A stretch of DNA of 64,000 nt from Sphingomonas sanguinis (GTDB lineage: Bacteria > Pseudomonadota > Alphaproteobacteria > Sphingomonadales > Sphingomonadaceae): contig NZ_CP079203.1 of assembly GCF_019297835.1 (NCBI RefSeq), positions 903,001 through 967,000 on the forward strand, in the 5' to 3' direction. The notes beneath the pieces were generated by a model. The model made no database searches. It saw only the letters and a list, made by a program, of their open reading frames with translations, and was not told where the DNA came from. A program made the translations under genes and the position numbers. Positions 30,874 to 34,942 of the stretch are shown one piece after another. Each line of letters starts with the position of its first letter. Positions within the stretch are counted from its first letter, which is position 1.

Positions 30874-32226
30874 TTAGCGGGAGCGCAGGCGGAAGTGGAA
30901 GGAAGCGCCCTCGCCGGGCACGCTTTCGACATACAGGTCGCCGCCCATCGCGCGCGCCAGACGCCGGGCGATATAGAGGCCCAGACCATTGCCGCCCGGC
31001 TCGCTGGGGTCGACCCGTTCGAACTTCTCGAAGATGCGGGTCTGGTCCTCGGGCGCGATGCCCTTGCCGTGATCGATGACGCTGACCAGCGCCCATTCCC
31101 CGTCGCGCTCCGCCGTCACCGTCACTCCGCCGCCGCGCGGGGAATAGCGGATCGCATTGCCGATCAGGTTGATGAGGATCTGGAGGCAGCGACCGAAATC
31201 GCCGATCGCGGGCATTCCCTCGTCCAGGCTGGGACGGCGGATCGTCACGCCGGCAGCATCCGCGCGAACCCCCAGCAACCCGGCGGCACGGCGGGCGACA
31301 TCGGCCAGGTCGATCGGCGTGGCGGCCAGCCGGAAATCGGGCTGTTCGATCGCCTGCAACTCGACCAGATTGTCGACCAGCCCGATCAGATGCCGCCCGG
31401 CATGGGCGATGTCATTGGCATATTCGGCATATTCCGCCGCGATCGGCCCGTCGCTGCGCGCCGCGATGCTGTCGGCATTGGCGACGATCCGGGCCAGCGG
31501 CGTACGCAGCGCACGGTCCAGCCCGGCGGTGAAGCTCTCGGTCAGCGGCGGTCCGCCAGGATGAAGCGCAAGGTCTTCATCCCCCTCGCCCGGTTCGTCG
31601 ATCAGATAGGTCGCGCCGACCAGCCCCGCGATACCCCCCGTACCGTCATGACGGATCGCCGCCGAAAGCCGCACCGGCGCATCGGTCGGCCGCAGGCGGG
31701 CACCCCGCCCGTCCAGCGGCGCGGCGCCTTCGAGCAGCGGCGTTCCCGTGTCGAAGGCGAACAGGGCATTGAGCGGCCGCCCGAGCATCGCCAGCGAATC
31801 GAAACCATGACGTAGCCCCGCCCCCGGTGAGACGAAGGTCAGGCGCAGCGCCGCATCGGTCTCCCAACGAAAATCCGCGCCGGTCGCGGCGTGATCGGGC
31901 GGGGTGGCGACGGGCTTCCAAGCGCTGCGGTCGCGCCAGCCGCTGACGCTCAGGCGGATCTGCCCGGTTTCGGGGCGCGCTTGCACCCACAATTCCAGAT
32001 CGCCTTCGTCATCGGCGACCACGACCTGCCGCGACACCGCGATGCCCAAGCGCCGCGCCAGCCGCGCGATCCGGGCGATTGGTGCGACGGCGATGCAGTC
32101 GCTGACCCCGCCCCCGGCGCGCATGTGAAGCAACTCGATGGGCGGATCGGCCGACAGGATGTGATCGCCCGCATCCAGAATCGCGCGTGCGACCATCGAT
32201 TCGCCGGGGCTATCCATCGAGGTCAT
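30874..32226 (-). CDS. histidine-kinase homologue lacking the phosphoacceptor histidine
   Basis: The 450-residue soluble protein has a divergent PAS-like N-terminal region (about 115-215), a HisKA-type segment (232-290) and a complete HATPase domain. The ATPase motifs are intact: the N box with Asn353 and Asn356, the G1 box DHGKGIA (from 385) and the G2 box GNGLGL (412-417). The H box should read SHELRTPL but is DRALRTPL (237-244), so Arg238 replaces His and Ala239 replaces the adjacent Glu. It may act as an ATP-binding pseudokinase or scaffold. The ATG at 32226 overlaps the upstream stop; the frame extends further but is not protein-like. Confidence 0.85.
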   Translation of the reverse strand: MTSMDSPGESMVARAILDAGDHILSADPPIELLHMRAGGGVSDCIAVAPIARIARLARRLGIAVSRQVVVADDEGDLELWVQARPETGQIRLSVSGWRDRSAWKPVATPPDHAATGADFRWETDAALRLTFVSPGAGLRHGFDSLAMLGRPLNALFAFDTGTPLLEGAAPLDGRGARLRPTDAPVRLSAAIRHDGTGGIAGLVGATYLIDEPGEGDEDLALHPGGPPLTESFTAGLDRALRTPLARIVANADSIAARSDGPIAAEYAEYANDIAHAGRHLIGLVDNLVELQAIEQPDFRLAATPIDLADVARRAAGLLGVRADAAGVTIRRPSLDEGMPAIGDFGRCLQILINLIGNAIRYSPRGGGVTVTAERDGEWALVSVIDHGKGIAPEDQTRIFEKFERVDPSEPGGNGLGLYIARRLARAMGGDLYVESVPGEGASFHFRLRSR

Positions 32227-33310: not shown

Positions 33311-34495
33311 CTAAACTTGAGCGCGCAATGTCTCGATTGCGGACGCCAAAGTGACGATCGCATAAACGCTTGCGAGCGCCAGACCCCAGGGGACGATGCC
33401 GAGGAGCGCGGTTGGGAAGAGCACTAGAAGATAAGCGGGTGGGCTGGCCCACCAGCGCCGCCGGAAGCGATACAGCCCGGCGCGCTCGGCCAAAATACCC
33501 AGAATAATCAGCATCAACGCCAGGACCGGCGCAATATCCTCACCCGAGACCCGAAAGTCCTGCCAGCCCAGCGCCGCCACCGTCAGACCGGCCAGCGCGG
33601 CGATCGCCGCCGACCCGGCACGCGCCGCGCCCTGCTCGTCGCGCAACCCCGCCAGCGTCTCGCCCAGCCCCAGCCCCAGCGTCCCCGCAATGGCGATCAA
33701 CAGGCCAAAGGCGGGCAGCCCGAACAGGATCAACACCAGGCCGAGCAACCCCAATCCGGCCCCCACGCCGCCCGCGACATGCGCCGGGACCGAGCGTTCG
33801 ACCAAACGCGGCAAAGCAAGTCGCGCGAGCGGTGCAAGAATGTAGCGATCGAACCAGCTGCGCCGCCCCGATACCAGTCGCGCGACCACCGCCCGCCCGC
33901 GCGCATCCAGCGCCTCGGCCCGGTGGACGATGCCGTGCCCGGCCTTTTCCGCATCGGCGGGCAACAGAATATGCGTCGCCCGCGCCTGTGCCGCCAGCCG
34001 CAACAGGGTCGATTGCAGATCGTAATCGCGGGGAAGCGCCGCCACCTCGGCGACCCGGCGCGGATCGAGCCGCGCGACGCCCGCCCAGGCCATCTGGCCA
34101 CCGACCCGCTCCAGCCCGGCTTCGGCCTCCGCCTCGGGCAACACGATCAGCGCGTCATGCCCGGTATCGCGCAGGACCAGCGCGATCGTGTCCTCGGTGG
34201 TGATGAGGCCATCGGCCAGGACCAGCAGCCGCGACAGGGGATGGAGCTTTTCCGATGCTTCCACCGCGCTGCGCACCGTGTCGACCACCACGCCGCGCTG
34301 CGCGATGCGAGCGATCGCGCCGAGCAGTTCCGGGGTCAGCCGAGCGACCACGATGATGATCTGCGCCGCCCCCGCCGCGATCAGCAGCCGCGCCTGATAT
34401 TCGATCAGGGTGACGCCCGCGAAAGGCAGGGTGGCCGTCAGCCGACCGGGGCGGTCGTCGGCGTCGTCAATCGCAAAGAGAAGACCGGAGAGCAT
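33311..34495 (-). CDS. nucleotidyltransferase-like N-terminus fused to a membrane domain
   Basis: The 394-residue protein has an N-terminal Rossmann-like region (residues 1-190) with FAGVTLIEYQARLLIAAGA, the helix pattern of sugar-nucleotide transferases. A bridging R-S-W-F-D-R-Y stretch and a hydrophobic C-terminal half (about 235-390, five or six helices) follow. This order recalls the bifunctional CTP:inositol-1-phosphate cytidylyltransferase/CDP-alcohol transferase. However, the CDP-alcohol motif (D-x2-DG-x2-AR-x8-G-x3-D-x3-D) is missing. It is probably a degenerate relative with another role; confidence in the link is low. Confidence 0.6.
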   Translation of the reverse strand: MLSGLLFAIDDADDRPGRLTATLPFAGVTLIEYQARLLIAAGAAQIIIVVARLTPELLGAIARIAQRGVVVDTVRSAVEASEKLHPLSRLLVLADGLITTEDTIALVLRDTGHDALIVLPEAEAEAGLERVGGQMAWAGVARLDPRRVAEVAALPRDYDLQSTLLRLAAQARATHILLPADAEKAGHGIVHRAEALDARGRAVVARLVSGRRSWFDRYILAPLARLALPRLVERSVPAHVAGGVGAGLGLLGLVLILFGLPAFGLLIAIAGTLGLGLGETLAGLRDEQGAARAGSAAIAALAGLTVAALGWQDFRVSGEDIAPVLALMLIILGILAERAGLYRFRRRWWASPPAYLLVLFPTALLGIVPWGLALASVYAIVTLASAIETLRAQV

Positions 34496-34841: not shown

Positions 34842-34942
34842 TGCCGTCGCTTAAACCCGACCATGGCTGCACGGAATAGCGCAATTCGCTTTCTGCCGTC
34901 GGCAAACGTGATAAACCGGCCCATTGTGACACGGGGGCCAAG

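Follow-up and report, generated by a model that had tools for sequence, protein, structure and literature searches.

The window, a 64,000-nt stretch of the Sphingomonas sanguinis genome (GCF_019297835.1, contig NZ_CP079203.1, positions 903,001 to 967,000), carries a block of genes that encode a histidine-kinase homologue, a DUF2336-like protein, a membrane protein and a small Hpt-like protein, next to a divergently oriented gene for a coiled-coil protein (Table 1). The start of the kinase gene and the DUF2336-like gene overlap by 4 nt. The kinase matches the Pfam HisKA profile with 27.4 bits (cut-off 26.9) and HATPase_c with 99.4 bits, and the two domains are arranged in the order found in histidine kinases. 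At E<=0.1, HisKA is recognized in 30/31 and HATPase_c in 31/31 orthologs, while a PAS family is detected in only some of them (PAS_4 in 11/31, PAS_9 in 6/31). Public records that give the kinase a name mostly call it "sensor histidine kinase".

Table 1 Coordinates of the features of the block within the window
Feature	Positions	Strand	Remarks
Pseudo-histidine kinase, 450 aa (predicted)	30874..32226	(-)	PAS-like stretch in the N-terminal region, followed by DHp (HisKA) and CA (HATPase_c)
Degenerate H box, L-D-R238-A239-L-R241-T-P-L	31495..31521	(-)	R238 codon 31513-31515; A239 codon 31510-31512
HATPase_c (CA)	30883..31191	(-)	Residues 346-448; N, G1 and G2 boxes intact
DUF2336-like protein, 350 aa	32223..33275	(-)	Pfam DUF2336 (PF10098) in orthologs
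Membrane protein, nucleotidyltransferase and CDP-alcohol phosphotransferase fold (IPCT-DIPPS-like)	33311..34495	(-)	Catalytic motifs predicted lost
Hpt-like protein, 97 aa	34548..34841	(-)	Leu55 (codon 34677-34679) in the phospho-His place
TTAA upstream of Hpt-like gene	34851..34854	(-)	13 nt before the start codon in the window; a lead only
Coiled-coil protein, 772 aa	34943..37261	(+)	Divergent neighbour; synteny often kept

Lost catalytic residues and a conserved ATP site

The preliminary description of this DNA had placed Arg238 and Ala239 where the phospho-acceptor His and the catalytic Glu are expected, and the open reading frame (32226..30874, reverse strand) indeed reads L-D-R-A-L-R-T-P-L at this point. 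To follow these positions through the family we used 70 same-genus rows, which come from 69/91 genomes (own genome included, one genome in two pieces), and 36 rows from other genera. The His column of the same-genus rows holds Arg in 33, Lys in 9, Gln in 8, Thr in 6, Ala in 5, Gly in 4, Ser in 3 and His and Glu in one each, and the Glu column holds Ala in 53, Ile in 7, Val and Leu in 4 each and Thr in 2. The other-genus rows show Pro (20), Arg, Gly and Ala (3 each), Glu and Ser (2 each) and His, Gln and Asp (1 each) in the former column, and Val (15), Ala (14), Ser (4), Thr (2) and Gly (1) in the latter. Thus, 104/106 rows lack the His; the two that have it (L022 and L124) lack the Glu. Neither an acidic residue (Glu or Asp) after the His position nor a Tyr at the His position occurs in any of the 106 rows.

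A protein search in which 7992 candidates were scored found 308 proteins, and the best 120 of these, the window copy included, are the nearest relatives; those that carry a name are mostly Sphingomonas. In these best 120 of 308 the His column is Arg in 78 and Lys in 42, with Glu present in 0/120. Conservation of Arg or Lys, which had been proposed as a check, therefore holds among the closest relatives only; across the family this position varies freely, with Pro frequent, and we rejected Arg/Lys as the functional residue itself since the column varies in this way. A displaced His in the same helix, named beforehand as a sign against the pseudokinase assignment, is not kept in the genus, as columns 234 and 250 contain His in just 6/70 and 10/70 same-genus rows, respectively. 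Column 242, which we take to be the Thr/Asn position of the phosphatase motif, is free as well (G21, T13, A12 and others in the same-genus rows).

The surroundings of these columns are rigid. Leu240, Arg241, Leu244 and Ile247 are invariant in 70/70 same-genus rows, which argues that the DHp helix is constrained and the catalytic column is not; Arg241 is retained in 34/36 other-genus rows. The ATP-site residues of the window kinase are Asn353 and Asn357 of the N box, Asp385, Gly387 and Gly389 of G1 and Gly414 and Gly416 of G2. All seven are invariant in the 69/69 same-genus rows with letters there, in 36/36 other-genus rows and in 120/120 of the best of the 308 proteins, in agreement with the original reading that the N, G1 and G2 boxes are intact. 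The alignments indicate that the non-His H box is neither a sequencing error nor a local loss, and they support a pseudokinase that has retained its ATP site, a trait that appears fixed family-wide. With the His and the Glu of the H box lost across the family, neither autophosphorylation nor a normal phosphodonor role would be expected.

At E<=1e-45 the kinase has an ortholog in 91/91 same-genus genomes, own included, with matched stretches free of stops, and in 0/59 genomes of other genera. Partial copies are present in G085, where the kinase lies in three pieces, and in G088, where only the C-terminal half is found, and the gene appears split in L118. The 16 orthologs included in a tree of 38 kinase cores group as a single clade (100/100), whose nearest relative the tree does not resolve. 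The S. sanguinis genome itself contains 41 HisKA matches, and in 39 of them the His is present (36 recognized by pattern and 3 by eye); the two His-less proteins are the window kinase and a kinase with the H box MSYELRTPL at G000:C1:890623 (L179), some 12 kb ahead of the window. We call the latter DivL-like, assuming that the Tyr hallmark S-Y-E-L-R-T-P-L identifies it, and the presence of this Tyr-bearing gene elsewhere in the genome led us to reject the window kinase as the DivL ortholog.

Companion genes of the kinase

The DUF2336 profile (PF10098) is common to 25/27 orthologs of the neighbouring protein at E<=0.1 (best 4.7e-15); the window copy itself gives no hmmscan match and, when the genome was searched, scored 22.5 bits where the cut-off is 34.6. 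A DUF2336 match accompanies the kinase in 69/76 kinase-bearing loci (69 among the 80 long loci). The seven others comprise six loci that have the kinase and no DUF2336 match (L054, L115, L118, L136, L137 and L139) and L075, which is cut by a contig end. The suggestion that this gene encodes a dedicated partner is thus borne out for its identity and its frequency, and fails as a strict rule: we rejected DUF2336 as an obligate partner given the six loci, and the DUF2336-like protein is a usual, not an obligatory, companion of the kinase. In other orders, a kinase-profile match lies within the 1.5 kb flanks of 5/30 DUF2336 loci, and 2 of these 5 kinases have an intact H box by pattern, the remaining 3 having none. 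In L151, from another order, a DUF2336 gene has as its neighbour a kinase whose H box is intact and of the G-P-I...Y type. An ancestral DUF2336-kinase pair with the His is only suggested. One locus, L028:1492-3942 (-), contains a single open frame across the DUF2336-like and kinase parts; this may be a sequencing error because the DUF2336 end is out of frame, and as 1/70 rows it was set aside as evidence of a fusion. We found no paper containing the name DUF2336, in a search outside of which most subscription journals lie.

The product of 33311-34495 fits the two-domain IPCT-DIPPS-type fold. The CDP-alcohol phosphotransferase motif is DGxxAR(x8)G(x3)D(x3)D. The full motif occurs in 0/79 membrane-protein orthologs and its short DGxxAR start anywhere in 3/79, so that all 79 differ in this respect from the Archaeoglobus fulgidus IPCT-DIPPS enzyme (PDB 4mnd). 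At E<=1e-10, and counting by kinship label, the membrane protein is matched in 175/246 genomes of the order, which divide into 159/163 genomes within the family of S. sanguinis (this genome included) and 16 weaker cases in other families. From the 109 other-genus genomes with a match we took 40 loci, and in 36/40 the kinase adjoins the membrane protein or lies one gene off; L109, L113, L117 and L147 have the membrane protein and no kinase. We also examined 20 loci with homologues of the membrane protein in 11 genomes from other families of the order, and their 1.5 kb flanks were free of matches to kinase, Hpt and DUF2336. Two of these other-family homologues, L246 and L252, largely keep the CDP-alcohol motif by eye.

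The Hpt profile is matched by 9/9 orthologs of the small protein at E<=0.1, the best of them with 3e-6; the window member scores 19.2 bits, short of the curated cut-off of 24.6. None of 38 rows (the window and 37 loci) has the phospho-His, and a further hit, in L118, has a gap there. The gene was scored as present when it matched the A6 profile of the family at E<=1e-4, a few loci being short at that end; it was found in 38/80 long loci (14/40 same-genus, 24/40 other-genus), and on this count we rejected it as a constant member of the block. Given this patchiness, persistence of the kinase needs no Hpt-like gene.

In 29/32 regions upstream of the Hpt-like gene, a TTAA precedes the start codon by 27-30 nt. 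TTAACC/GGTTAA is present in 15/32 of these regions compared to 3/27 upstream of gltA and 0/25 upstream of gltX, and a Markov expectation from 1000 replicates has a mean of 1.5 and a maximum of 8; the window itself lacks TTAACC. CtrA sites have the form TTAA-N7-TTAA, and the N7 spacing occurs in two regions and N8 in six. The upstream TTAA is a predicted, CtrA-like lead only, which does not demonstrate control by CtrA. The layout of the 772-aa coiled-coil protein is reminiscent of TipN, and inspection of its sequence by eye makes two membrane segments near the N terminus likely.

Thus, the preliminary description missed what appear to be two further catalytically degenerate genes in the block, where the pseudo-kinase is joined by a probable pseudo-transferase and, at about every second locus, by a pseudo-Hpt. 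According to a published survey, 0.9% of HisKA domains and 0.9% of Hpt domains lack the His (PMC12632262). If pseudo-Hpt and pseudo-HisKA each have a frequency of about 1%, their chance co-occurrence seems unlikely on grounds of rarity.

Proposed role and alternatives

The pattern of loss and retention suggests that the kinase signals by binding and not by catalysis. We favor, at a probability of roughly 57%, a pseudo-histidine kinase that would act as a conformational switch driven by ATP and its PAS-like region and work by binding a receiver domain or another kinase. With the HisKA dimerization helices and an apparently complete ATP pocket kept, the N-terminal PAS-like region and ATP occupancy could switch the conformation of the dimer, which would most likely dock a receiver domain or another two-component kinase, by analogy to DivL and DivK~P. 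The site of action would probably be near the membrane, together with the co-encoded degenerate membrane protein, and the pseudo-Hpt, present at roughly every second locus, would be an accessory. A complex of the block products is inferred from synteny, which is incomplete.

DivL, a pseudo-histidine kinase of Caulobacter, is the closest parallel. As reported in PMC4211667, the DHp-CA core of DivL lacks both kinase and phosphatase activity and senses DivK~P through binding, and the interaction with DivK is disrupted by mutations in R553 and in further docking residues. The two proteins appear alike in the HisKA-type core, the replaced phospho-His and the retained DHp docking Arg, since by residue counting DivL R553 corresponds to R241 here. 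T557 and Y562 correspond to A245 and N250, and because these docking positions differ, DivK is an unlikely partner and another receiver or kinase a likelier one. Further differences are that DivL has Tyr at the His column, whereas the family of the window kinase accepts many residues there (Arg, Lys, Pro and others) and has lost the Glu as well, that DivL binds an ATP analogue weakly (PMC4211667) whereas the ATP motifs here look complete, and that the operons differ. PMC2877005 describes DivJ-PleC-DivK as degenerate or lost in Sphingomonadales and CckA-ChpT-CtrA as kept, which makes the latter a natural candidate for modulation.

A broader scheme is tentative, and we consider it rather doubtful: a dead phosphorelay in which the kinase, the Hpt (where kept) and the membrane protein are all non-catalytic with folds kept, forming a nucleotide-gated membrane scaffold that might sequester or sense receivers of a CckA-ChpT-CtrA type relay, possibly under the control of CtrA. 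The plant pseudo-HPt AHP6 resembles the 97-aa protein in being Hpt-like without the phospho-His; the protein described here differs in being bacterial and co-encoded with a pseudo-kinase.

Among the alternatives, the one that survives best, though we regard it as unlikely, is an inhibitor of the RetS type. In this reading the window kinase would heterodimerize through the DHp helices with a second, intact histidine kinase and block or redirect it; RetS-type inhibitory hybrid kinases are likewise kinase homologues that work through protein-protein contact. The conserved DHp core and the RetS chains among the PDB sequence matches (6dk7) are compatible with such a role, but the block encodes no intact cognate kinase, and the best paralog across the whole core is only 38% identical.

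It is considerably less probable that phosphotransfer has moved to another residue or takes place in trans, for example from the CA domain to the His of a partner. The complete ATP pocket, invariant in the rows checked, and His279 of the second DHp helix, invariant in 31 rows, would fit this; however, the catalytic Glu is missing in 106/106 rows and the obvious local acceptor, the Hpt-like protein, is without His in 38/38 rows and is often missing. An equivalent of His279 is also present (by eye) in the DUF2336-adjacent kinase of L151, and because that kinase has its H box intact, His279 is probably structural. Equally improbable is a decaying relic, a kinase drifting after loss of its pathway, which could be argued from the degeneration or loss of DivJ-PleC-DivK in Sphingomonadales (PMC2877005), from the absence of the kinase in 4/40 other-genus loci, the split-looking L118 and the partial copies in G085 and G088, and from the patchy Hpt-like gene, but which is at odds with the orthologs in 91/91 same-genus genomes (E<=1e-45, no stops within the matches) and with ATP-site residues that are invariant over many genera.

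The binding-based reading concerns a protein whose pseudokinase nature, as judged from its sequence, is confirmed, and whose conservation is wider and company odder than the preliminary description could show. To our knowledge, few pseudo-histidine kinases besides DivL and RetS are understood. We found no publication that names this locus; most subscription journals lay outside the search, so that unpublished status is not established. Pseudo-histidine kinases are rare, at 0.9% of HisKA domains in the survey of PMC12632262, and the one described here appears to be fixed in a whole bacterial family, where its neighbours are a degenerate membrane enzyme and, at about half of the loci, a pseudo-Hpt. 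Such genes should not be counted among working two-component proteins, and the family offers a clean, genetically tractable case for the roles that kinase folds may have without catalysis.
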